From contig NZ_JAUFQI010000002.1 in the NCBI RefSeq assembly GCF_030409715.1, positions 1 to 24,587 of the forward strand: a DNA stretch of 24,587 bases, given 5' to 3'. The stretch's first letter is position 1, and each line of letters opens with the position of its first letter. Made by a program: the position numbers and the translations under genes. The stretch is from Reinekea marina (lineage in GTDB: Bacteria > Pseudomonadota > Gammaproteobacteria > Pseudomonadales > Natronospirillaceae). Shown piece after piece: positions 6,969-24,587 of this stretch. Under the pieces are notes generated by a model, which was not told where the DNA came from, made no database searches, and was given only the letters and a program-made list of their open reading frames with translations.

Positions 6969-7823
6969 GTGTCCTTGATAAAACTCATTGTAATGACCAG
7001 CTTAGCGCTTGTTGCTTTTGCGGCTAATTCCGTACTGACTCGAATGGCATTGGCGCAAGGGCTTATCGACCCTGGGAACTTCACTTTAATTCGCTTAATC
7101 AGTGGAGCTATGACCTTGGCGATTATCTGTTTCTTTGTAAATAGAAACAGCGTGCAAGGCGTTTTTACATCGGGAACTTGGTTGGGCGCATTTTCTCTGT
7201 GGATGTATGCAGTATGCTTTTCTTATGGCTATCTCCACTTAGACACCGCAACTGGCGCTCTCATTCTATTTACGACAGTTCAGTTAACCATGTTAATAAT
7301 AAGTTATGTTCGCGGCCAACGGTTTTCTATCATGGAGTGGGTAGGGCTAATTATTGCCTTTATGGGTTTTGTCGTATTGATCTTACCTAACTTAAGCTCA
7401 GGTACTACAAGCCTTGGCATTTTGCTTATGGTGGCTTCAGGTATAGCCTGGGGCAGTTATACGCTATTAGGTAAGGGAGCTGTTTCACCCACCTTATTAA
7501 CGACCGGCAATTTTATAAGGGCTTCAATTATGTCATTGCCGATTATTTTCTTTAGCGCTTCCATACAATATGTAGAGTTTTCAGGCGTCTCGCTTGCCAT
7601 TGCTTCGGGCGCTTTAGCCTCTGGTATTGGTTACGCACTGTGGTACACCGTGTTACCAAAATTGACCACCAGCCAAGCGGCCGTATCTCAATTATTGGTT
7701 CCAGCGCTGGCCGCATTTGGTGGCGTTTTATTTACTGGCGACCGCTTAACAACTCTCTTAATTGTGTCACTCGCCATTATTATGAGTGGAATCTTTATTG
7801 TTATAAGAGCTAAGGCGCACTAA
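6969..7823 (+). CDS. EamA/DMT superfamily transporter
   Basis: 284 residues, ten predicted membrane helices in two EamA repeats (about 3-135 and 143-280), the standard size for a drug/metabolite exporter. It starts MSLIKLIVMTSLALVAFAANSV from a GTG at 6969; GAGAAG lies 10-15 bp upstream, while the ATG at 6993 would cut into helix 1. The second repeat begins LGILLMVASGIAWGSYTLLGKG, with the usual W-x-x-Y-T after the first helix. Members export amino acids, nucleobases or drugs; the substrate here is unknown. The 3' end overlaps the stop of the convergent MFS gene by four bases, so the two transcripts are antisense at their ends. Confidence 0.85.
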   Translation: MSLIKLIVMTSLALVAFAANSVLTRMALAQGLIDPGNFTLIRLISGAMTLAIICFFVNRNSVQGVFTSGTWLGAFSLWMYAVCFSYGYLHLDTATGALILFTTVQLTMLIISYVRGQRFSIMEWVGLIIAFMGFVVLILPNLSSGTTSLGILLMVASGIAWGSYTLLGKGAVSPTLLTTGNFIRASIMSLPIIFFSASIQYVEFSGVSLAIASGALASGIGYALWYTVLPKLTTSQAAVSQLLVPALAAFGGVLFTGDRLTTLLIVSLAIIMSGIFIVIRAKAH

Positions 7824-9004
7824 ACCGGTATATGCGCGCTTTGCTTAAACAGAGCTTTCATGGCAAATGCCGACACGAGCAGAATAATGGCTGCAATTAA
7901 AAATCCAAGATATGTCATTTGCGAATGGCTTAGCCAAGCAATCAACACGTAACCTAAACTTTGGCTCATCGTAGAAAATAGTTTTAAACCGCCATCGATA
8001 CGGCCCCGTTCCGATACATTAAGTTCGCGGCTCATTTTTACCGTTCTGGCGATTCGGTTAAATGAATTAAAAAAGCCAAAAGGCAGTGTAAACACTATTA
8101 ACAAAAGTGGATTCAAAATAATAAACATAGCCACCAATAGCATCGAGAGTATCAACACGCTGTTAAACATCACTTTTTCAGTTTCAAAATTTTCTAACAG
8201 TTTGGCTACACCGATCCCACAAATGAGCGCTCCTAGCCCGTAAGCCACTTTCCAAGCTGCAAAGTAATCGCCTGTTAAGCCCAACTCAGAAAAATAAATT
8301 GGTATTAATTTCGATAAAAAGGTTAATACGGGGTATGAAAGGCATGACAATGCTAAAAATATAAAAAATCTAGGCTGGCGCTGAAAAATAGTTTTAGTTT
8401 CTACCAGCTGCGCAATAAATGAAGACTTTAGAACAACACTGAGCTGCCGGCGGTAGGGCATTAGCCCGTAGCATAGTGCCGCAATTAGGGAGGCGATCAT
8501 TGCAAAAGCTGAGAATTCTCGCATTGACCAAATCGACATCAATAAAATTCCCGCCGCCCCTGAGCCGAGCGATGTAGTTTGCATGACCATTTCTAGTCGA
8601 CCAGAAACCATAGGGTATTCATTGGCGTTGAAGTGTTCTTGAGTGAAGGCTGAGTTGGTACTCCATGCAAAATCACCGGTCCACCAAAAAACCAGCTGAG
8701 CGAAGATGAGCACTCCTATGTGCGCATCACCTTTCACAAAACTCATAAAAACCAAGGCAGCCGTAAGCGCCTGTATACATTGAACACCGATAAGGATATT
8801 TTTGCGCGAATGACGATCAATATAAGTAGCCAATATGGGTGTAAGCAAAAATGAACCCGCTGTACAAACAAAAGCCGTTAATGCAACCAAAGCGCCACTC
8901 GCCCCATTGGCCAGCATAAGCCAAGGCAATGCCATCATAAACATGCCTGAAGACAGGCCATCAAAAAAACGACCGCAGAGAAAGGCGCGATAAAAACTCG
9001 TCAT
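7820..9004 (-). CDS. MFS transporter, predicted SoxR-regulated efflux pump
   Basis: 394 residues with about twelve membrane helices. The N-terminus FYRAFLCGRFFDGLSSGMFMMALPWLMLA and the loop ILATYIDRHSRKNILIGVQ (the cytoplasmic loop 2-3 motif, D-R-x-x-R-K) are characteristic of MFS proteins. The ATG at 9004 follows a good AAGGAAA Shine-Dalgarno. It is divergent from soxR and sits behind a SoxR-type promoter at 9041-9071, so it should be induced by redox-cycling compounds. SoxR-controlled MFS pumps are known in pseudomonads and help export phenazines or quinones; that this gene does the same is inference. No second protein (membrane fusion or outer-membrane channel) accompanies it. Confidence 0.85.
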   Translation of the reverse strand: MTSFYRAFLCGRFFDGLSSGMFMMALPWLMLANGASGALVALTAFVCTAGSFLLTPILATYIDRHSRKNILIGVQCIQALTAALVFMSFVKGDAHIGVLIFAQLVFWWTGDFAWSTNSAFTQEHFNANEYPMVSGRLEMVMQTTSLGSGAAGILLMSIWSMREFSAFAMIASLIAALCYGLMPYRRQLSVVLKSSFIAQLVETKTIFQRQPRFFIFLALSCLSYPVLTFLSKLIPIYFSELGLTGDYFAAWKVAYGLGALICGIGVAKLLENFETEKVMFNSVLILSMLLVAMFIILNPLLLIVFTLPFGFFNSFNRIARTVKMSRELNVSERGRIDGGLKLFSTMSQSLGYVLIAWLSHSQMTYLGFLIAAIILLVSAFAMKALFKQSAHIPV

Positions 9005-9040
9005 CTAGTTTCCTTATGTATTCGTTGCTGTGTATGATGC

Positions 9041-9071
9041 AGTTTAAAACCTCAAGTTAACTTTAGGTCAA
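9041..9071 (-). promoter_or_regulatory. SoxR-activated promoter with SoxR box (9050-9067), reading into the MFS gene
   Basis: CCTCAAGTTAACTTTAGG at 9050-9067 matches the E. coli soxS operator core CCTCAAGTTAACTTGAGG at 17 of 18 positions. On the minus strand TTGACC (9066-9071) and TAAACT (9041-9046) are separated by exactly 19 bp, the over-long spacer that SoxR and other MerR proteins correct by DNA distortion. This orients activation towards the MFS gene. The same site lies 22 bp before the soxR start and could also affect soxR itself. Confidence 0.9.
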
Positions 9072-9088
9072 GCCTTTAAGGAGTGTTT

Positions 9089-9520
9089 ATGGAATTAAGT
9101 GTGGGCGAAGTGGCAAAGCGTAGCGGAATCTCGGTACCGACATTACACTTTTATGAATCTAAAGGACTAATAACGAGCCGTCGAAATCAGGGGAATCAAC
9201 GCCGCTATGAACGAAGTGTCCTTCGAAGAGTAGCGATTATTAAAACTGCGCAACAGCTTGGTCTTAGCTTAAAAGATATCGCCCAGTCGATGGCCTGCTT
9301 GCCCACCAACAAAGCACCGACCAAACAAGATTGGTTAAAAATGTCTAAACAATGGCAGCATGAGCTTGATGCTCGAATATCAAGGCTTGAAAAATTACGC
9401 GATCACTTGGGAGATTGCATTGGCTGCGGCTGCCTATCGTTGCAATCATGCAAACTGCGCAATCCTGACGACATCTTGGGAAAAAAAGAAGTAGGTGCTG
9501 TTGAACTCAGTCAACAGTAG
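9089..9520 (+). CDS. soxR: Redox-sensitive transcriptional activator SoxR
   Basis: 143 residues from the ATG at 9089, which has AAGGAG 5 bp upstream; a GTG at 9083 lies inside that ribosome site and is unlikely. MerR-type winged helix: LSVGEVAKRSGISVPTLHFYESKGLI at 3-28, then NQGNQRRYERSVLRRVAII. A dimerisation helix follows, and the [2Fe-2S] cluster ligands are C110, C113, C115 and C121 in the CIGCGC-x5-C pattern, with CKLRNPDD as in E. coli SoxR. All four cysteines are present, so redox sensing should be intact. No soxS neighbour is seen, as in non-enteric bacteria, where SoxR activates transporter genes directly. The divergent MFS gene with its SoxR box is the obvious target. Confidence 0.95.
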   Translation: MELSVGEVAKRSGISVPTLHFYESKGLITSRRNQGNQRRYERSVLRRVAIIKTAQQLGLSLKDIAQSMACLPTNKAPTKQDWLKMSKQWQHELDARISRLEKLRDHLGDCIGCGCLSLQSCKLRNPDDILGKKEVGAVELSQQ

Positions 9521-9561: not shown

Positions 9562-11400
9562 TTATATCTCACCTTCTTTCAATAGCGTTTCCTCCAGTTC
9601 GTTTTTGAACTGCTTTTGGTAAAGTTCAAAGTAATGACCCTTTTTCTCTAGCAATTCACTGTGACTGCCTTGTTCGATCAACCTGCCATCTTCTATCACG
9701 ACAATCACATCCGCATTGCGAATGGTTGAAAGCCGATGAGCAATGATAAAGCTGGTGCGGCCTTTCAGCACTGTGGCTAAGCTCTTTTGCAGGCGAGCTT
9801 CTGTTTGCGTATCAACCGACGACGTGGCTTCATCCATCACTAAAATTTGCGGATCATGAATAATGGCGCGGGCAAAACTGATTAATTGTTTTTGCCCTGT
9901 AGAAAGGTTTGTCCCCCCTTCTTGTACCTGTGTTTCATAACCATGCTCCATACCCATGATAATATCGTGAACGTTAACAGCTTTTGCGGCCGCTTCTATT
10001 TCAGCGTCTGTCGCATCTAACTTACCGTATCGTATGTTTGATCGAATGGTGCCGGTAAAAAGAAACGGTGTTTGCAATACAATGCCTAGATTCGATTGCA
10101 GCCATAAAAGACTACGATCTCGGTAATCAACACCGTTAACCAATACTTGCCCTTGGTTTGGCTCATAGAAACGACACAGTAAACTGACGACAGTTGATTT
10201 ACCGCTTCCAGTTGGACCAACGAGTGCCACGGTAGAACCGGCTGGAACTTTCAAATTGAAGTCTGAGAGTACGGGCTCGTCTGGTTTATATGAAAACTGA
10301 ATATCTTTAAATTCTATATCTCGAATATCATTTTCTAAACCATCAAGAGTTTGGTGATCCGATTCATAGGCTCGCTTCATTAGTTCAACAACTGCGTCAG
10401 AATCTTTAATCGTTGGCTCAACGACTAATAACCCCATAACTCGCTCAACACAGGCGGTTGTTCGCTGTAAGTTGGCCAAGGTTTCACTGACCTCCAACAT
10501 TGGATCCATCAGTGTACGTGCATAATTCATAAACGCGACTAAGGTACCTAGCGTTAATACACCAGCAAGTACATCAACACCGCCTAGCCAAAGAGCAATA
10601 CCCACGGCCAAGCTGACAAAGACGTTTACAAAAGGAAAAAATGCCGACGTCAGTAACAGATTATGCATAGATAGCCCGTACATCTTATCGGTATCGACTT
10701 TAAATTCTTTTAAATTTTGCTGTTCACGTACCAAGATTTTACTGGTTTGTATGCCTGCAATCCCTTCGTTATATACAGCGGTTAGCCTTGAGTTAGTTTT
10801 ACGTAACTCACGCGAACTGTTCAGTATTTTTTGATTAAACACCCAAGCCACGCCGGCCAACAATGGGAATAAGGCCAATACAATTAAGGCCATTCTTGCG
10901 TCTAAAACAAAAAGCACAATAAAGATCGCCAGAATCATGGGTATTCCCCAAAACAAATCCAGTGTCCCCCAGGCAACTATTCTGGCAATACGGGCTGTAT
11001 CAGAAGTTATTCGAGAAACCAACCAGCCTACGGCGTTGTTGTCATAAAATGAAAACGATAGAGATTGTAGGTGTTCGAAACTCTCTTTTCTTAGCTCGTA
11101 CATGAGCGTCATCGACAACTTACCGGTAAGCCGAATAAAGCTTCTAATGCATATCACGAGCACGGCTAATGCAGTAAAGAATACCAGCCCATAACCTAAC
11201 AGCTGAGCATCCGCTCCTTTATCAGCAATTTCGTCGAAGACTTCTTTTGTAATCAACGTAAAGCTGGCTTCAACACCAGCCGTCGTTAGTGCAAGTGCGA
11301 TCACTCGGTGAAATAGTTTTTTTTGTGGCTGGTAGCATCGGTTAAAAACCGCTTTCCAGGCGCCTTTTTCAAAAGGCGTACTATTTTGTGTAGCGTCCAT
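9562..11400 (-). CDS. ABC exporter half-transporter, MdlB-like (catalytic subunit)
   Basis: 612 residues: a six-helix exporter membrane domain (about 20-330) fused to an ATPase. Walker A GPTGSGKST starts at 395, the signature is LSTGQ near 499 (non-canonical second position), Walker B ILVMDEATSS carries the catalytic Glu near 524, and the switch His is in IIAHRLST near 555. The intact Glu with an altered signature is the mirror image of the partner gene, which is how heterodimeric exporters such as MdlAB share one consensus and one degenerate site. GGAGAAGG precedes the ATG at 11400, 23 bp after the partner's stop, so the two are co-transcribed and co-translated. Likely substrates are drugs, lipids or peptides; none can be read from the sequence. 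No peptidase C39 domain is present. Confidence 0.88.
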   Translation of the reverse strand: MDATQNSTPFEKGAWKAVFNRCYQPQKKLFHRVIALALTTAGVEASFTLITKEVFDEIADKGADAQLLGYGLVFFTALAVLVICIRSFIRLTGKLSMTLMYELRKESFEHLQSLSFSFYDNNAVGWLVSRITSDTARIARIVAWGTLDLFWGIPMILAIFIVLFVLDARMALIVLALFPLLAGVAWVFNQKILNSSRELRKTNSRLTAVYNEGIAGIQTSKILVREQQNLKEFKVDTDKMYGLSMHNLLLTSAFFPFVNVFVSLAVGIALWLGGVDVLAGVLTLGTLVAFMNYARTLMDPMLEVSETLANLQRTTACVERVMGLLVVEPTIKDSDAVVELMKRAYESDHQTLDGLENDIRDIEFKDIQFSYKPDEPVLSDFNLKVPAGSTVALVGPTGSGKSTVVSLLCRFYEPNQGQVLVNGVDYRDRSLLWLQSNLGIVLQTPFLFTGTIRSNIRYGKLDATDAEIEAAAKAVNVHDIIMGMEHGYETQVQEGGTNLSTGQKQLISFARAIIHDPQILVMDEATSSVDTQTEARLQKSLATVLKGRTSFIIAHRLSTIRNADVIVVIEDGRLIEQGSHSELLEKKGHYFELYQKQFKNELEETLLKEGEI

Positions 11401-11423: not shown

Positions 11424-13256
11424 TTAAACCGTTACTTTAATTTCCGATTCAAATTGGTCTTTTTGGTCGCTTTGAATTTCCCATAGCTCATTGTAAAAAC
11501 CATCTCGATGAGTCAATTCGTTATGCGTTCCTTGATCAGTAATCCGACCGTCTTGCATCACAATTATTCGGTCTGCCTTTTGGCACACACTGATTCGATG
11601 CGTAATTATGAGCAGCGTTTGCTCACCCTTTTTCTCATGCAAGGCCGAGATAATCTTTTGCTCAGTCGAGGCATCTACAGCACTGAGCGTGTCATCTAGC
11701 ACCAAAATGGGTGGCGTATTTAATAAAGTACGAGACAAAGTTACCCGTTGCTTTTGGCCACCACTTAAACTCACACCCCGTTCACCAATGACGGTGCTAT
11801 AACCACCTTGGAAACTTTCAATAGTGTGATGAACAGCCGCCGCTGTTGTCGAATGAACCATTGCGCCATCGCTGGCCTCTAAGTGACTGAACTTAATGTT
11901 TTCACGTAAGCTTCGACTGAATAAAAACGGCTCTTGAAGTAGTGTGCCTATTTGGTGACGAATATCCTTTCGAGCAATTGAACTCAGTTCAATACCATCT
12001 ACTGAAATAGACCCTTGTTCATAATCATGTAAACGCATCAGCAATTGGATCAGGGTACTCTTACCAGCACCGGTAGGACCTACAATGGCTATGGTTTCTC
12101 CAGGGGCAACATCAAAACTTACGTCGGTGAGCACTGGGCGATCTTTATCGTACTGAAAGTGTATATTCTCAAATTTTATCGCCCCCATGATTCGGTCTGG
12201 TAAAGGCGTAACATTCTGGAGTTCTTCTTCCTCTGGCGCTTCTAATATTTCTTGAATTCGGCCAATCGCTACGGTGGCTTTGCCAGCTTCACTGAGTTCT
12301 TTGCCTAACTGTCGAATCGGCCAAATTAACAAATTGGTGTATCCAATGAATGCAAAGTAGGTACCGAACGAAATATGACCTTGCGCGGTTAACCAGCCTC
12401 CGCCGATGAGAACAATGCCGCTCTGCGCAATACACAATAAATCTGAGAGCGACCAGAAGTTGGCAAACATACAAATAAGTTTGTAGTTTAAATCACTGTA
12501 TCGCGCATTTTTTTCATCAAATTTTTCACACTCATAGTCTTGGCGAGCAAAAGCGCGTACCACTCGAATACCGGTAAGGTTTTCTTGGACTATGGTAGTC
12601 AGTTCGCCTTCGGCTTCGTCTACTTTCTGAAACAATTCTCGAACTTTTACAAAGAACACCATGCCGTAGTATAAAACTACAGGTACCAATATGAGTGAAA
12701 GAACCGTAAGCCACGCATTTTGCATAAACATCAGTGGAATAACGACGGCCATTAAAATAATGGTTCGGCCTATATTCATCACTTGCATGGTTAAAAACTC
12801 TCGCAATGTATCAATATCGGATGTGCAACGCTGAAGAATGTCACCACTGTCGGCATTATTTAAATAGCGCTCATCGATGTGATGTAAATGATGGTAGAGT
12901 TTATTCCTCAGTTCTCGAACCGTCGTTTCGCAAGCACCTGCGGCGAGGTAGTCTTTGAGGTACATAAAAAGACCGCTCAATGCTGTAACGATGACAATGG
13001 CCAAACCGGCTAACCAAAGTTGGTTGGCTAGGGCATCTGGCCCACCGACCCAACTAATTACGGCATCAATCTTGTCACCATTGTGAACACGCGGCTCGGT
13101 AATGACTCGATCTATCACTAACTTACCAATGGTTGGTACTAGAAACATAAAGTAACTGGCAATACCCACGCTAATAATTGCGCCGAGGTAGGGCCATTTT
13201 TTTTGATGAATTAAATCTATTAATATTTGATTACGCTGTGAAGCTTTCTTGTTCAC
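11424..13256 (-). CDS. ABC exporter half-transporter, MdlA-like (degenerate ATP site subunit)
   Basis: 610 residues: a six-helix exporter domain, then an ATPase with Walker A GPTGAGKST at 393, a canonical LSGGQ near 497, Walker B ILVLDDTLSA near 518-527 where the catalytic Glu is Asp, and H-loop IITHRIS near 553. The Asp marks the degenerate site of heterodimeric exporters and matches E. coli MdlA (LDDALSAVD) from memory. The start is a GTG at 13256 with AAGGAAG 5 bp upstream; upstream DNA lacks a better start. First gene of a two-gene operon. A leader ORF and alternative hairpins ending in a Rho-independent terminator lie 54-225 bp upstream, suggesting that expression depends on attenuation. 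Confidence 0.88.
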   Translation of the reverse strand: MNKKASQRNQILIDLIHQKKWPYLGAIISVGIASYFMFLVPTIGKLVIDRVITEPRVHNGDKIDAVISWVGGPDALANQLWLAGLAIVIVTALSGLFMYLKDYLAAGACETTVRELRNKLYHHLHHIDERYLNNADSGDILQRCTSDIDTLREFLTMQVMNIGRTIILMAVVIPLMFMQNAWLTVLSLILVPVVLYYGMVFFVKVRELFQKVDEAEGELTTIVQENLTGIRVVRAFARQDYECEKFDEKNARYSDLNYKLICMFANFWSLSDLLCIAQSGIVLIGGGWLTAQGHISFGTYFAFIGYTNLLIWPIRQLGKELSEAGKATVAIGRIQEILEAPEEEELQNVTPLPDRIMGAIKFENIHFQYDKDRPVLTDVSFDVAPGETIAIVGPTGAGKSTLIQLLMRLHDYEQGSISVDGIELSSIARKDIRHQIGTLLQEPFLFSRSLRENIKFSHLEASDGAMVHSTTAAAVHHTIESFQGGYSTVIGERGVSLSGGQKQRVTLSRTLLNTPPILVLDDTLSAVDASTEQKIISALHEKKGEQTLLIITHRISVCQKADRIIVMQDGRITDQGTHNELTHRDGFYNELWEIQSDQKDQFESEIKVTV

Positions 13257-13309
13257 GTTATCTTCCTTAATGCTTTGTTTTCTAAGACTTTTTCACAACA
13301 CCAACACGC

Positions 13310-13338
13310 AAAAAAGCCCGCAATTTAGCGAGCTTTTT
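13310..13338 (-). terminator. Rho-independent terminator ahead of the ABC exporter operon (segments 4:5)
   Basis: On the minus strand GCTCGC (13333-13328), loop TAAATT, GCGGGC (13321-13316) and six T (13315-13310) form a terminator, extended by A/T pairing on both sides. The fourth pair is a G-U wobble on minus-strand RNA but a C-A mismatch on plus-strand RNA, so it folds best as the minus transcript. It lies 54 bp before the exporter start. Confidence 0.8.
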
Positions 13339-13380
13339 AAAAATACGATTAATAGTTTTTGGTCGTATTCGAAAGCCCGC
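13328..13380 (-). promoter_or_regulatory. Antiterminator-like hairpin competing with the terminator (segments 3:4)
   Basis: On the minus strand GCGGGCTTT (13380-13372) pairs over 9 bp, one G-U, with AAAGCTCGC (13336-13328). Inside it AATACGA (13369-13363) pairs with TCGTATT (13348-13342) around a 14-nt loop. The 13333-13328 strand is the 5' arm of the downstream terminator, so the two hairpins exclude each other. Confidence 0.65.
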
Positions 13381-13390
13381 GAATTTATCA

Positions 13391-13423
13391 GACGGGCAAT
13401 CGACAAACGATTAGCTACCCGTC
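13391..13423 (-). promoter_or_regulatory. Leader hairpin overlapping the leader-ORF stop (segments 1:2)
   Basis: GACGGG (minus 13423-13418) pairs with CCCGTC (13396-13391), with an inner AATCG/CGATT stem around a 5-nt loop. The first arm overlaps the stop codon of the 19-codon ORF. The second arm, GCCCG, can instead pair with CGGGC at 13379-13375 (segment 3). Confidence 0.65.
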
Positions 13424-13481
13424 AGAAGGTATTTCCAAGCGCTGCAAAGGCGCCGTATGGTACTGTGATTAACATAGTCAT
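13422..13481 (-). CDS. Candidate 19-residue leader peptide of the ABC exporter operon
   Basis: The reading frame encodes MTMLITVPYGAFAALGNTF and stops at TGA, preceded by AGGAA 9 bp before the ATG at 13481 and by an in-frame stop. The third codon is also ATG. It is far too short to judge by composition; the case rests on its place. The stop codon overlaps the first arm of a hairpin that begins an ordered chain of competing stems ending in a terminator just before an ABC exporter operon. This is the geometry of ribosome-mediated attenuation, where stalling on or release from the leader decides which stem forms. The peptide has no run of one amino acid, so if it senses something, a drug or nascent-chain effect is likelier than charged-tRNA supply. 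No clear promoter could be assigned upstream. Confidence 0.4.
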   Translation of the reverse strand: MTMLITVPYGAFAALGNTF

Positions 13482-13540
13482 ATTTGGTTATTCCTATTTA
13501 AAACTAATCATTAAAATATGCCGTAAGACGGGTGAGTGTT

Positions 13541-13555
13541 TTGCACAATGTGCAA
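13541..13555. promoter_or_regulatory. 15-bp palindrome, possible operator
   Basis: TTGCACAATGTGCAA has 7-bp perfect arms around a single central base. It lies between the minus-strand leader ORF and the plus-strand mini-ORF, 60 bp upstream of the leader ORF start. I cannot assign a regulator; its length and form suit a dimeric HTH protein. Confidence 0.45.
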
Positions 13556-13643
13556 CTGAGTGTCGACAAAGTTAGAACAAGCCATTCAAAAAGGCAAGCG
13601 CTTTTTGGAAAACTTTTTAAATCAGTGTTGCATTTTAAATTTG

Positions 13644-13688
13644 AAAGGCGCAGTATCACGCCAAATTTCTATCGCCTTTTTCACGGCG
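13644..13688 (+). other. Alternative GGCG/CGCC stems before the plus-strand mini-ORF
   Basis: AAAGGCG (13644-13650) can pair with CGCC at 13659-13662 or with CGCCTTT at 13673-13679. The latter strand, followed by more T, can also pair with GGCG at 13685-13688. These stems are mutually exclusive. Terminator-like potential exists but the loops are large. Confidence 0.35.
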
Positions 13689-13712
13689 TTTTCTCAATTC
13701 GGAGGGTTAAAT

Positions 13713-13754
13713 ATGATTGTATTAAACAAAACGCACTTAGGATCTGGCGCGTAA
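13713..13754 (+). CDS. Candidate 13-residue mini-ORF upstream of rsgA
   Basis: GGAGGG at 13701-13706, six bases before the ATG, is among the best ribosome sites in the window. The frame encodes MIVLNKTHLGSGA and stops at TAA. The same frame is open back to a GTG at 13560 (64 residues), but that GTG has no ribosome site. It is followed by a terminator at 13810-13840 and then by rsgA. A leader peptide or a small independent peptide gene are both possible; I do not recognise the sequence. Confidence 0.3.
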   Translation: MIVLNKTHLGSGA

Positions 13755-13809
13755 TTTAACACTCTTTTTAAAAATTACCTTCAGCTTCTCGGTGCTTAAC
13801 TTTTGCATC

Positions 13810-13840
13810 GGGCCATCTATTGATGACCCTTTTTAATTTT
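13810..13840 (+). terminator. Rho-independent terminator just upstream of rsgA
   Basis: GGGCCATC (13810-13817) pairs with GATGACCC (13822-13829) around TATT, with one mismatch, followed by a run of T to 13834 and another after AA. It would end any plus-strand transcript from the gap and lies 21 bp before the rsgA start, so rsgA needs read-through or a promoter very close to its start. Confidence 0.65.
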
Positions 13841-13860
13841 ATTAATTTGGGGTTATACCA

Positions 13861-14922
13861 TTGAACAATCCAAATAAAATGTCACTGACCGATCTCGGTT
13901 GGCGACCTATTTTACAACAACAATTAACGTTAGAAGATTTAGAACAAGGCTATGTTGCTCGCGTTGTTAGTGCTCAACGGGATGTTATCGGCGTTTTATC
14001 TGAACAAGGCGAGTCATTATTGCCTCTCAGATTATTTGATCAAAAAGATGATCCAGAGTTTCGACCCACGGTAGGGGATTGGGTTTGGGTAGATTTTGAA
14101 CACAGTCGTGCACGTGTATTCGAGCGTTTAAGTTATTTAAAACGCACGGCGGCTGGCAGCAACCCAAAACCTCAATCGATAGCCGCAAATGTTGATACGT
14201 TGTTTTTAGTTAGCTCGTGCAATAAAGACTTTAACGTCAGTAAGTTAGAACGCTATTTGGCTCTGGCATTAGAGGCAAAAATTCCGACAGTGATTGTTCT
14301 CACAAAAGCCGATCTGACAAACAGTGTTGAAGACTATGAAGCCCAAGCAAAAAGCATACATGTAAACACACCCGTGGTGGTAGTGGATGCTTTATCTGAA
14401 GAAGCGATTGACCACCTTAAACCTTGGCTGGTCAAAGGTGATGCCATTGCCTTTGTTGGGTCCTCTGGTGTGGGAAAATCTACGCTTACGAATGCAGTTC
14501 TGGGTAGAGAGGCACAGGCGACCCAAGGCATTCGGGTAGATGATGCCAAAGGACGGCACACTACAACGGATCGATCAATGCACCTTTCTCCGACGGGGAC
14601 TTGGGTAATAGACACACCCGGTATGAGAGAGCTTAGAATTACGGATGTGAGCGATGGCATTGCTGAAGTATTCGATGATATTGAAGCTTTGAAGTTGCGA
14701 TGTAAGTTTCGTAATTGTCAACATGAAGGTGATGAAGGATGTGCCATTCAAGAGGCCATTGAGGCTGGCGAACTGACAATGCGCCGCTGGTCGAACTACC
14801 TCAAACTACAAAGAGAAGCAGACTTCGCAGCCAGTAATAAATGGCAACAACGTGAGAAGCACCGGCAATTTGGTAAGATGATAAACAACCATCTTAAGCA
14901 AAAGAAAACGCTAAAGTACTAG
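13861..14922 (+). CDS. rsgA: Ribosome small subunit-dependent GTPase A (RsgA)
   Basis: Circularly permuted GTPase that helps mature and check 30S subunits. 353 residues from a TTG at 13861 with GGGG upstream; an ATG at 13879 (MSLTDLGW) is the alternative. An N-terminal OB-fold (about 25-100) is followed by the permuted G domain: the G4 motif TKAD near 148 comes before the P-loop GSSGVGKST near 200, then switch sequence GRHTTTDRSMHL and the G3 motif DTPGMREL near 258. The C-terminal zinc site is CKFRNCQHEGDEGC (C-x4-C-x-H-x5-C) near 281-294. The N-terminus (LGWRPILQQQL) resembles the longer RsgA type that many gammaproteobacteria carry as a second copy, so this may not be the only RsgA. A strong terminator follows. 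Confidence 0.92.
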   Translation: MNNPNKMSLTDLGWRPILQQQLTLEDLEQGYVARVVSAQRDVIGVLSEQGESLLPLRLFDQKDDPEFRPTVGDWVWVDFEHSRARVFERLSYLKRTAAGSNPKPQSIAANVDTLFLVSSCNKDFNVSKLERYLALALEAKIPTVIVLTKADLTNSVEDYEAQAKSIHVNTPVVVVDALSEEAIDHLKPWLVKGDAIAFVGSSGVGKSTLTNAVLGREAQATQGIRVDDAKGRHTTTDRSMHLSPTGTWVIDTPGMRELRITDVSDGIAEVFDDIEALKLRCKFRNCQHEGDEGCAIQEAIEAGELTMRRWSNYLKLQREADFAASNKWQQREKHRQFGKMINNHLKQKKTLKY

Positions 14923-19779: not shown

Positions 19780-20778
19780 TTAGTAGTTACAAGTGTTGTC
19801 AGACATGTAGTCGTGAACCTTGATCTTACCAGCGATGATGTCAGCTTTGATTGCATCTACCTTCGCTTTTTCATCTGCAGAAATCAGTGCTTCGTTGTGC
19901 TGATCAACCGCGTAGTCAACACCACCTTCTGCTAGACCAAGAACCTGAATACCTGGAGTCCACTCACCGTTTTGAGCATCTTCCCAAGCACCGTAAGCTG
20001 CAACACCAACACGCTTAACCATAGACGTTAACATTGTGCCTGGCTGGATGTGGTTTTGGTTTGAATCTACACCAATTGCGAAAACGCCTTCGTCTTTAGC
20101 GGCCTGATAAACACCGATACCGGTACCACCAGCAGCTGCGAATACAGTGTCTGCGCCTTTAGAGATTTGAGACTTAGCAAGCTCAGAACCACGAGCAGGG
20201 TCATTAAATGCTGTTGGCGTAGAACCTGCCATGTTTTGTAATACAGTGATGTCACCAGAAATGTGCTTAGCACCTTGCTCATAACCACATGCGAACTTAC
20301 GAATAAGAGGAATGTCCATTCCGCCTACGAAGCCTACAGTGTTTGATTCAGACTTAAGTGCCGCTAATGCACCCACTAGGAAAGAACCTTCATGCTCAGA
20401 GAAAACAATAGACTGAACGTTTGGTAGATCAACAACCATATCAATGATGACGAACTGGCTATCTGGGAACTCAGCCGCAACTTTAGTTACTGAAGAAGCC
20501 ATGTTGAAACCAACGGCAACGATTGGGCTATTGCCACGACTCGCTAAACGACGAAGACCCTGTTCACGCTGCTCTTCGTTTTGTGGTTCAAATTCACGAA
20601 CGGCAACGCCTTTATCCATAGAGAACTTCTCAGCTCCGTTACGGAATACAGCTTCGTTGAATGATTTATCGAACTTACCTGCGGTATCGTAAACAACCGC
20701 TGGGTTAAAGTCTGCTGCGATGGCAGATGCAGACATACCGATAACGGTAGATGCAGCTAAAGTTAATAATGCTTTCAT
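19780..20778 (-). CDS. BMP family ABC transporter substrate-binding protein (copy 1)
   Basis: Periplasmic binding protein of the Bmp/PnrA family, which in characterised cases binds purine nucleosides or related compounds. 332 residues with a signal peptide (MKALLTLAASTVIGMSASAIA) and no lipobox, so it is free in the periplasm. Family marks in the mature part are AVVYDTAGKFDKSFNEAVF near 28-46, PDSQFVIIDMVVDLPNVQSIVFSEHEGSFLVGALA near 105-140 and AAAGGTGIGVYQAAKDEGVFAIGVDSNQ near 212-240. The last is the ligand-pocket region. AGAGGA precedes the ATG. The gene lies downstream of an exact RutR-type operator. It is clearly paralogous to the protein encoded immediately upstream. Confidence 0.93.
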   Translation of the reverse strand: MKALLTLAASTVIGMSASAIAADFNPAVVYDTAGKFDKSFNEAVFRNGAEKFSMDKGVAVREFEPQNEEQREQGLRRLASRGNSPIVAVGFNMASSVTKVAAEFPDSQFVIIDMVVDLPNVQSIVFSEHEGSFLVGALAALKSESNTVGFVGGMDIPLIRKFACGYEQGAKHISGDITVLQNMAGSTPTAFNDPARGSELAKSQISKGADTVFAAAGGTGIGVYQAAKDEGVFAIGVDSNQNHIQPGTMLTSMVKRVGVAAYGAWEDAQNGEWTPGIQVLGLAEGGVDYAVDQHNEALISADEKAKVDAIKADIIAGKIKVHDYMSDNTCNY

Positions 20779-20863
20779 GGAGAGTCCTCTATACGTATTT
20801 ATTGTTAGTGTTTCTAGTTTACGCGTGGCATACCATTTGGTGGCGATGCCACTTTAAGCTTTG

Positions 20864-20879
20864 TTGACCATATGGTCAA
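20864..20879. promoter_or_regulatory. RutR-type operator (perfect 16-bp palindrome)
   Basis: TTGACCATATGGTCAA is an exact match to the RutR box consensus I recall for E. coli, TTGACCAnnTGGTCAA. RutR is a TetR-family regulator whose binding is relieved by uracil or thymine. The site is 86 bp upstream of the first BMP start and would fall about 20-30 bp downstream of the start site predicted from the TATAAT at 20904-20909, a position suited to repression. Confidence 0.75.
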
Positions 20880-20903
20880 TGGAATTGCTTAAAATTCTTT
20901 TTC

Positions 20904-20909
20904 ATTATA
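20904..20909 (-). promoter_or_regulatory. -10 element of the copy 1 BMP promoter
   Basis: An exact TATAAT on the minus strand. No good -35 lies 16-18 bp upstream (GATGTA is the nearest), so the promoter may be weak or need activation. The rest of the 20779-21002 gap is AT-rich. Confidence 0.5.
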
Positions 20910-21002
20910 CACGCTGAATGACCAGTTACATCGCTCAAGTCAACTTTCATTCATCTTTTATTCATAAATGAAATCAACTTCGATCGTGCCTAATTTTATT
21001 CA

Positions 21003-22010
21003 CTAGCCTTCTATAAAAGGCACCGGACACTGGTTGGTGGCGTTGTAATCGACCACTTTAATTTTGCCCGACTTAATAGCGTCGCGAATTTTGTTGATCT
21101 TTTTCTCATCGCTTTTTGAAACCAAACCGCGGTTGAAAATATCCAACACCCAATCAACACCATTTTCGGCGAGACCAAGCTCTGTAACACCTGGGTTCCA
21201 AATGCCTTTTTCAGCATCTTCCAGAACGTTATACGCAGCAATGCCAACGTTCTTAACCATTGACGTTAACATGGTGCCGGTATGTAAAAAGTTTTGATTA
21301 GAATCTACGCCGATAGCGTATACATTAGAATGGTTGGCCGCTGCTTCATAAACCCCATTCCCAGTACCACCGGCGGCGGCATAGATCACCTCGACACCTT
21401 GAGTAATCATTTTACTGGCCAGTTCATTACCCTTTTCCGGAATCGAAAAGCCCGAAAAATCGGTAGAAGCCATACTCAAATACACTTGAATATCATCATT
21501 AATATAGGCGGCACCTTGTGCGTAGCCACAACCAAAACGGCGAATAAAAGGTAAATCTACACCACCGATGAAACCAATTTTATCGCCCTTTGCTTTTAAC
21601 GCCGCTAACGCGCCAACCACGAATGACCCTTCGTGCTCTTTAAACACAATTGATTGAACATTGGGTAAATCGACTACGGAATCAATAATAGCAAACTGAG
21701 TATCGGGAAATTGTGGCGCAACTTCTTGAAGAGCCGATGCGAAAGAAAACCCCAATGCAATAATAGGGCTACGACCCTGCTTTGCTAAATTGGTCAATTG
21801 ACCGACAAATTCATCCGGAGAACTCGGGTTCGCCTCAACGAGATTTCGACCATATTCGGCCTTAAACGGCACAACCCCTTGGCGATACATGGCCTCATTA
21901 AATGAGCTGTCGAATTTAGGCGCCTCGGTATAGACCACCGCTGGGTTACTGGCCAACGCTAACGGTGCAATTACAGCAACTATGGCGCAGGCGATCGATT
22001 TTAAGTTCAT
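21003..22010 (-). CDS. BMP family ABC transporter substrate-binding protein (copy 2)
   Basis: 335 residues from the ATG at 22010, chosen because it begins a signal peptide (MNLKSIACAIVAVIAPLALA); an ATG 54 bases upstream would put 18 polar residues in front. It matches copy 1 along the whole length: AVVYTEAPKFDSSFNEAMYRQG, then VDLPNVQSIVFKEHEGSFVVGALAALKA and YAAAGGTGNGVYEAAANHSNVYAIGVDSNQN. Differences cluster near the first pocket segment: D-T-A-G-K becomes T-E-A-P-K, and Q-N-E-E-Q-R-E-Q-G becomes S-S-P-D-E-F-V-G-Q, so the two may differ in ligand or affinity. Only one ATPase-permease set follows, so both probably feed it. It has its own promoter with a TTGACC half-site. Confidence 0.92.
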   Translation of the reverse strand: MNLKSIACAIVAVIAPLALASNPAVVYTEAPKFDSSFNEAMYRQGVVPFKAEYGRNLVEANPSSPDEFVGQLTNLAKQGRSPIIALGFSFASALQEVAPQFPDTQFAIIDSVVDLPNVQSIVFKEHEGSFVVGALAALKAKGDKIGFIGGVDLPFIRRFGCGYAQGAAYINDDIQVYLSMASTDFSGFSIPEKGNELASKMITQGVEVIYAAAGGTGNGVYEAAANHSNVYAIGVDSNQNFLHTGTMLTSMVKNVGIAAYNVLEDAEKGIWNPGVTELGLAENGVDWVLDIFNRGLVSKSDEKKINKIRDAIKSGKIKVVDYNATNQCPVPFIEG

Positions 22011-22097
22011 ATTATTTTTCTCATTAAGGAGTTGGTACAGCCACGTCAATTTACATCCATGCATTTTATCTCAACGACCTTGTCCAAAGATTGACCG

Positions 22098-23486: not shown

Positions 23487-24587
23487 ATGAAAAGAATTCC
23501 TGAACCCTTTCGTATAAAAATGGTTGAACCCATTAAAATGACCACCCTTGCAGACCGTGAGGTTGCCTTGAAGGAAGCGGGCTATAACCCGTTTTCACTC
23601 AAAAGCGAAGATGTGTATATCGACTTACTCACCGATTCAGGCACCGGCGCAATGAGTGCAAACCAATGGGCCGGGCTTATGATAGGCGATGAGGCCTATG
23701 CCGGAAGTCGCAGTTTTATCAAGCTTCAAGATTCGGTTCGCACCTTATTTAAATACCAACATGTGATTCCTGTGCACCAAGGTCGCGGCGCCGAGCAAAT
23801 TTTATTCCCTACGCTAATCGAAAAACGCCAAAAGCAATTTAAAGCCAACCATGAATCGGGCGAGTTTAAGCCCATCTTTATATCTAATTACCACTTCGAC
23901 ACCACCGCAGCGCATGTTGAATTAAGCGGTGCAAAAGCCATTAACACGCTAACGCCAGAGGCGACCAACACCGCACAATGGTTCGACTTTAAAGGCAATT
24001 TTGATCTGCCCCAGTTAGAAAAAACCATTAACGACGCCGGTGCCGCCAATGTGGCCGGTGTCATTATTACCATTACTTGTAACTCCGCGGGCGGCCAACC
24101 CGTCGCCATGGCAAATATTAAAGCCGCCGCTACTTTGGCGCGTAAGCACGGCATTCCTATCATTATTGATGCCGCACGCTTTGCTGAAAACGCCTGGTTT
24201 ATCAAACAACGCGAAGAGGGCTATGCCGATGTGGCCATAGGCGATGTAATTCGCGAAATGTTCGCCTATGCCGATATGTTTACCATGTCGGCCAAGAAAG
24301 ACCCCATGGTGAACATGGCGGTTTGTGCTGCTTTAAAGACAATGAAGAATTGTTTAAAGCCGCACAAGTGTTGTGCGTACCGATGGAAGGCTTTGTTACC
24401 TACGGCGGATTAAACGGACGAGACATGGAAGCGCTAAACGTAGGTTTATGGGAATGCGCCGATGAAGACTTTTTGCGCTACCGCATTGGTCAAGTGGAAT
24501 ACTTGGGCGAACGCTTGCGCGAAGGCGGCATTCCTATTCAGTACCCAACGGGTGGGCACGCGGTATTTTAGACGCGGGCAAGCTATT
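23487..24587 (+). pseudogene. tnaA: Tryptophanase, two single-base frameshifts, cut by the window end
   Basis: PLP enzyme splitting tryptophan to indole, pyruvate and ammonia. The first frame starts [16 protein letters not shown], then [70 protein letters not shown] and [11 protein letters not shown], where the first Lys of KKD binds PLP. SAKKD and the [10 protein letters not shown] stretch favour tryptophanase over tyrosine phenol-lyase. The frame breaks at 24317-24318: one extra G would restore NMGGL and lead into [17 protein letters not shown], read in the next frame up to GGHAVF. There a second break at the T run 24566-24569 hides LDAGKL, restored by one more T. Both look like one-base deletions in short homopolymers, so sequencing or assembly error is as likely as true decay. 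Confidence 0.87.

Follow-up and report, generated by a model that had tools for sequence, protein, structure and literature searches.

How the two-gene ABC exporter operon of a marine gammaproteobacterium, Reinekea marina, is switched on is the question raised by the leader of about 600 bases that separates it, on the minus strand, from rsgA. The window analyzed here is an entire small contig of 24,587 nt (G000:C2). Its assembly also includes a large contig, C1, in which the 601-base leader stretch recurs letter for letter, as do two longer stretches around it (3601 and 4830 bases). The leader is therefore present twice in the assembly, and because the compared stretches, up to 4830 bases, are identical in C1, the small contig looks redundant. 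The rsgA gene (13861–14922, plus strand) is divergent from the leader and exporter, and the closest named record by exporter is Reinekea forsetii G2M07, with 99% exporter identity. Elsewhere in the window, a soxR gene (9083–9520, plus strand, TIGR01950) is divergent to an MFS gene (7820–9004, minus strand) that has weak similarity, under the cut-off, to Mef(A); this pair (7820–9520), which lies downstream of the ABC operon, may form another efflux unit. Two neighboring, mutually similar genes, which we take to encode binding proteins (19780–22064), look like a tandem duplication and are followed by an ABC importer-like set (19657–15991). A tryptophanase-like ORF at 23487–24413 stops early, close to where the contig ends, and looks truncated or frameshifted.

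Both exporter genes encode ABC half-transporters with PF00664 plus PF00005. Sequence motifs place a DD Walker B and an LSGGQ signature in subunit A (11424–13256, minus strand, GTG start at 13256) and a DE Walker B and an LSTGQ signature in subunit B (9562–11400, minus strand). The subunits are 28% identical to each other, and the many exporters that they match include the YheI and YheH chains. In exporter pairs with one degenerate site, one half has a non-Glu Walker B and the other half an altered signature. Because DD/LSGGQ and DE/LSTGQ fit this rule, the pair is classed by its motifs as a predicted heterodimeric exporter with one degenerate ATP site; an earlier sequence-only reading of this DNA had likewise called the exporter heterodimeric.

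That reading had also described a short leader ORF and five arms on the minus strand, all of which were found, on reading the sequence, at the positions it had given. The leader ORF has 19 codons (MTMLITVPYGAFAALGNTF; 13422–13481, with ATG at 13481 and TGA at 13424–13422). Arm 1 (GACGGGT, 13417–13423) overlaps the stop codon, beginning at its second base, and is followed by arm 2 (GCCCGTC, 13391–13397), arm 3 (GCGGGCTTT, 13372–13380), arm 4 (AAAGCTCGC, 13328–13336), and arm 5 (GCGGGC plus T6, 13310–13321). Arms 1 to 4 were identified by reading, folds, and swap tests, and arm 5 by reading, folding, and comparison. Arms 4 and 5 form a predicted terminator (4:5) whose hairpin begins 86 bases past the leader stop, that is, outside the leader ORF. 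A consensus terminator scan of 13200–13880 listed none, in our opinion because the 11-pair stem absorbs most of the T run, which was seen by reading. Elements beyond those first described include inner stems (AATCG/CGATT within 1:2 and AATACGA/TCGTATT within 3:4), an arm 0 (ACCCGTC, 13533–13527) that is complementary to arm 1 and pairs with it in the window's centroid fold, and a 5' hairpin (TTGCAC-ATT-GTGCAA, 13555–13541) present in the fold of 13308–13560 and close to the presumed transcript start. A putative promoter (13569–13597, minus strand), consisting of TTGCCT (13597–13592), a 17-base spacer, and TAACTT (13574–13569), was recognized from hexamers picked by eye in eight leaders. Seven of the eight have the pattern TTGCNN, 17, TANNNT (L008 deviates), and a consensus promoter scan gave nothing at 13569–13597. 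Transcription would start at approximately 13562.

Close homologs of the exporter were identified by a protein search with subunit A alone, blind to the leader, as those with at least 61% identity (61–100%). They occur in seven of 22 genomes of family f1, the window's own being one of the seven, and in one MAG labeled Hahella; a class-wide exporter search of 369 genomes gave no further match at 1e-100. Eight loci were compared (the window, L033, L034, L004, L005, L006, L007, and L008), with G177 and L033 counted as one record. Each has a leader ORF of 18–22 codons with its stop codon within arm 1 (TGA in seven, TAA in L005), followed by arms 2 to 5, and GCGGGCTTTTT in arm 5 is kept in all eight. 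The earlier expectation of a conserved MTMLITVPYGAF frame held for position, length, and stop; the peptide itself is not conserved in the eight loci (MTMLITVPYGAFAALGNTF, MMSIYTGHTGVFGAPRGSC, MSFILSYIIVSAFFAPKGYC, MINSIFHNWDAPNASVRFR, MINNIFTPDGAANASGRFR, MKHYILTPHGAGTASGHC, and MMPNIRISKALYKYASKGAVKH), and the arms stay alike. Runs of a regulatory codon are absent from all eight leaders, which extends the earlier observation that the window's leader lacks repeated codons. Most invariant letters of the leader belong to the arms and terminator, with no conservation in the loops. Among the seven other close loci, rsgA is found within the available flank (1.5 to 3 kb) only in L033, so the leader travels with the exporter as the upstream neighbor changes. 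The exporter of L034, the Hahella-labeled MAG, is 74% identical to that of the window by best tblastn segment, and other species of the window's genus are at 65–67% by a different measure, which suggests horizontal transfer or a mislabeled MAG. L033, from the same-species strain G2M07, has an altered arm 1 (GACGGTGTG for GACGGGTAG at 2835–2843) with arm 2 unaltered; its 1:2 pairing is shortened yet retained in the fold from stop to arm 4.

Species-swap tests on seven distinct loci (L033 was dropped as a near copy; relatedness among some of the loci means that they are not fully independent) indicate that the inner stems covary, both within 1:2 (P = 0.005) and within 3:4 (P = 0.006). This covariation, with the ORF and arms present in all eight loci, supports the original proposal of an attenuator with competing hairpins, for which a lack of such conservation in relatives had been named as a refuting outcome. 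No covariation signal was obtained in the close group for the outer arms (1:2, 2:3, 3:4, and 4:5; swap P from 0.12 to 1.0) because they hardly vary, each having to match two partners. The 1:2 helix is 92.3% paired (slide −2 register). For the 5' hairpin the swap P value of 0.0002 is biased, as stems were chosen per sequence, and automatic stem picking missed the expected hairpin in L005 and L006; its combined z is −4.9 over the seven distinct loci and −0.6 in the window alone. An arm 0 motif, [AG]CCCG, occurs 21–63 bases ahead of the ATG in all eight close loci, with a swap P of 0.024 for 0:1 pairing in the close group. Partition functions give 0:1 a probability below 0.3 in the seven other loci, and arm 0 matters mainly in the window.

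The leader is more stable than expected by chance. The fold of 13308–13444 (137 bases, from ORF end to terminator) has a z of −4.5 against dinucleotide shuffles, none of 200 being as stable, and that of 13308–13560 has a z of −3.5 against shuffles. Five of six other loci gave values of −3.6 to −4.6 in the same folding test, and L005 gave −1.7, with 11 of its 200 shuffles equally stable. An ATG-initiated ORF of 16–23 codons with a Shine-Dalgarno (SD) sequence that ends at the arm 1 stop arose in four of 5000 shuffles of the window leader and in 9–32 of 5000 for each of the other seven loci; seven of the eight close loci pass a stricter SD rule, which L008 fails. A possible hairpin within the ORF (GGCGC...GCGCT, 13438–13454, minus strand), where seven of the eight close loci have an Ala codon GCG, was rejected as a firm element for its weak combined z (−2.1 over seven loci and −1.1 over 15 loci of the second family described below).

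Folding in silico is consistent with a choice between alternative pairings. In minimum-energy folds from the stop to arm 4, a free arm 1 yields both 1:2 and 3:4 at all eight close loci. Masking it moves six of them to 2:3, and the window and same-species L033 keep 3:4. Partition functions that included the 5' part and assumed ribosome footprints were used to compare a ribosome at the stop with one near codon 5. For RNA extending to arm 4, the stop-codon ribosome gives the higher probability of 2:3 at all eight loci: 0.27 versus 0.01 in the window, 0.09 versus 0.03 in L033, 0.13 versus 0.00 in L008, and approximately 0.85 versus 0.00 in L004, L006, and L007. For a ribosome placed near codon 5, the probability exceeds 0.5 for 1:2 in seven loci (L033, 0.07) and for 3:4 in six (L007, 0.00; L008, 0.02). 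A stop-codon ribosome lowers 3:4 in the window from 0.95 to 0.66 as 2:3 rises from 0.01 to 0.27. Because this equilibrium shift is modest, the window's switch would have to rest on folding order, with 1:2 transcribed before arm 3, and by these models a working switch would need to be kinetic at several close loci. When the window RNA extends to arm 3, 2:3 is at 0.83 and 1:2 at 0.00 for either ribosome position. The full-length fold of the window is dominated by the 4:5 terminator, and 4:5 reaches only 0.28 in the full leader of L005 with a stop-codon ribosome. The minimum-energy folds, swap tests, and the T run seen by reading identify a mutually exclusive antiterminator and intrinsic terminator.

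From its sequence, the leader is very likely a ribosome-controlled transcription attenuator of the two-gene exporter operon. The full reading, to which we assign a probability of roughly 0.7, adds that a ribosome on the leader stop would turn the operon OFF and a ribosome held upstream would turn it ON. Transcription would start near 13562, with a ribosome translating the 19-codon leader close behind RNA polymerase. On prompt arrival at the UGA, the ribosome would cover arm 1 during synthesis of arms 2 and 3; 2:3 would then form, leaving arm 4 for arm 5, and the resulting 4:5 terminator would stop transcription. If the ribosome were delayed earlier in the leader, arm 1 would be free to form 1:2, arm 3 would take arm 4, and 3:4 would block the terminator so that the exporter is made. 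If no ribosome loads, arm 0 may hold arm 1 and keep untranslated leaders OFF, a weaker suggestion that concerns mainly the window. The polarity is probable from the anatomy, because arm 1 begins at the stop codon, so that timely completion of the leader would mean OFF and an upstream hold-up ON. As the natural trigger, an inhibitor that targets the ribosome or a general slowing of elongation is more probable than one amino acid or a particular arrest peptide. The leader peptide can vary freely in sequence, which argues against either of the latter, and its drift specifically disfavors an arrest peptide; no amino acid is indicated because codon runs are absent. Translation inhibitors are the likeliest guess for the natural inducer, at about even odds.

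A second layout in another family of the same order (f39) bears on this polarity. Exporter matches at E 1e-100 or better, 38–46% identical, were found in 60 of 100 sampled genomes. The set comprises 57 upstream regions, without L113 (upstream part short of the start), G799 (match begins at a contig end), and the weakest of the matches listed, which are second copies for the most part (E between about 1e-101 and 1e-103). A motif search found a leader ORF with a stop opening TGAGC, then CCGCTC-like and GCGGG-like arms, in 15 of the 57 regions; the TGAGC motif is absent from the other 42. Three of the 15 (L097, L101, and L128) are near relatives. All 15 leader ORFs terminate inside arm 1, and the arm letters are unlike those of the Reinekea group. 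As long as the RNA ends short of arm 3, arm 2 is paired with the stop region in 14 of 15, and placing a ribosome at the stop yields 2:3 in 14 of 15; even without a ribosome, 12 of 15 full-length RNAs favor 2:3. A run of at least six T within 12 bases past arm 3 occurs in five of the 15, so a clear intrinsic 2:3 terminator is limited to those five. The invariance of TGAGC, CCGCTC, and CGG in alignment A5, from which L098 and L109 were dropped, is partly circular because the motif rules that selected the f39 sets contain arm letters. Covariation of 2:3 is weak in f39 (25 of 500 shuffles reach the score). Five regions without TGAGC (L075, L082, L083, L084, and L105) still carry, 100–300 bases upstream, a short ORF preceded by something like a ribosome site, with other stop contexts; these may represent yet another layout under the same control. 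Both layouts would share a polarity because masking of arm 1 leads toward termination, directly by 2:3 in f39, in those cases where 2:3 is a terminator, and by relay in the Reinekea group, where 2:3 leaves arm 4 to arm 5. The sequence-only reading had held that the ON state could not be read from sequence; the two arm layouts argue that a stop-codon ribosome means termination, a polarity that we infer.

We searched for the arrangement without using the arm letters, requiring an ORF with a ribosome site and then a terminator-like hairpin. It was recovered at all eight close loci, at 12 of 57 f39 exporters, and at one of 24 other ABC exporters of relatives used as a control with starts set per locus (one of these, L015, has only 14 bases upstream). 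In five of the 12 f39 cases, the stop (offset −1 to +2) is where arm 2 has its best complement. Across 390 genomes of the order, model R1 scored above 70 bits only at exporter leaders, all of them training sequences or copies; matches below 41 bits were taken for terminators as a group, not one by one. Model R2 matched 14 of the 100 f39 genomes at one place each, all beside exporters by coordinates, and 13 of these are training sequences. In the only new case, L089, the readable ORF passes TGAGC and stops approximately 16 bases later. Across the order, R2 matched one of 390 genomes (L148), and this match was rejected as a terminator between convergent genes, not an exporter leader. The control result (1 of 24) and the f39 T-run count slightly lower two of the supports; our odds were kept because the close group stands on other evidence.

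The best surviving alternative keeps the same attenuator and places the sensor at the termination step. A ribosome slow or arrested at the UGA, whether because release factor is limiting or because a ligand acts together with the nascent peptide, would give OFF, and fast release or the lack of ribosomes would give ON. The stop codon itself lies within arm 1 in all eight close loci and in the f39 set, TGA prevails among the eight leaders, and the last residue is Arg or Cys in five of eight close leaders and 12 of 15 f39 leaders. However, the UGA letters are already required by pairing, final residues also include F, H, V, W, and Y, and stress would be expected to turn an exporter ON, all of which make this version unlikely. 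An RNA switch that binds a ligand or protein, with the ORF incidental, would account for the structured, conserved, and alternatively folding RNA and for the 5' hairpin. It is improbable given that an SD-preceded ORF ends in arm 1 at all eight loci (with L008 failing the stricter SD rule), that the invariant letters lie mostly in the arms and terminator rather than the loops, and that Rfam at gathering thresholds gave no match in the window or in 20 relative loci. Equally improbable is an ordinary promoter-proximal terminator with no regulated choice, its extra arms by-products of the repeated GCGGGC. Dominance of 4:5 in the window's full-length fold fits it, and the many weak R1 matches near 30–40 bits, not individually examined, suggest that GCGGGC-type terminators are common; but the window has no upstream same-strand gene to terminate (rsgA is divergent), the five arms, ORF, and inner stems are conserved jointly, and just one of 24 other exporters has an ORF with a terminator. 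An amino acid-responsive attenuator of the trp/his type likewise combines a leader ORF with competing arms and a terminator but is very improbable, since none of the eight leaders has regulatory codon runs and the controlled gene is an exporter.

An attenuator that turns the exporter ON when the ribosome is held upstream may, more tentatively, represent an undescribed class of translation-sensing attenuators in marine gammaproteobacteria, with the leader stop as the first strand of the switch. Members would sense timely arrival of the pioneer ribosome independently of the peptide, and would be rewired between lineages (three-strand, five- or six-strand, with other arm letters) with polarity and exporter kept. 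In marine Reinekea and relatives, the pump would probably be switched on when ribosomes are held up. Independence from the peptide suggests that the leader senses ribosome delay in general and could hint at the exporter's substrate, and a stop-in-arm-1 layout would make polarity predictable from sequence. If this is true, drug-responsive leader-peptide attenuation of heterodimeric ABC exporters reaches from Firmicutes to non-model Gram-negatives.

A literature search of open-licence papers gave no description of the Reinekea exporter leader. The closest known system is bmrBCD of Bacillus subtilis, in which, according to the passages on its leader, a heterodimeric ABC exporter operon is preceded by a leader ORF and three stem-loops that form alternatively, and drug-slowed leader translation leads to read-through (PMC4191407). 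Both systems thus combine a heterodimeric ABC exporter with a leader ORF and alternative hairpins, and the polarity proposed here fits bmrBCD because slowed translation there gives read-through. BmrB has 53 codons with the terminator inside the coding region, and blocked leader translation lowers expression (PMC4191407), whereas the Reinekea leader has 19 codons, a stop in arm 1, and a terminator 86 bases past the stop; it is set apart from the bmrB type by this layout rather than by a leader alignment. The low expression of bmrBCD without leader translation might have a counterpart in arm 0 of Reinekea. In Pseudomonas aeruginosa, the leader peptide PA5471.1 of armZ (mexXY), with proposed transcription attenuation induced by ribosome-targeting antibiotics (PMC12057347), is likewise a Gram-negative leader peptide acting on efflux. 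However, as presented in that paper's account of the leader, it controls the anti-repressor of an RND pump and not the pump operon, a comparison made apart from arm layout. ABC-leaders, predicted in a survey of premature terminators as attenuators ahead of ABC transporter operons, including one before a multidrug export operon of lactobacilli (PMC2965389), belong to another lineage; the survey mentions neither Hahella nor any word beginning with Oceanospirill-, and its relevant passages include no such leader. The patAB genes of Streptococcus pneumoniae encode an ABC exporter that an intrinsic terminator in the leader holds back; the published abstract describes terminator mutations, not a leader ORF (PMC4319486). 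In Escherichia coli mdtU-mdtJI, translation of a small upstream ORF is required for exporter induction through control of premature termination, but the control, as summarized in that report, is Rho dependent and spermidine responsive, and the transporter is of another kind (PMC7815308). As far as these sources go, leader-peptide attenuation of an exporter in B. subtilis, predicted ABC-leaders, and a proposed efflux leader peptide in P. aeruginosa are already known; what is new is the lineage, the placement of the leader stop within arm 1, and both the arm relay and the way in which it is rewired.
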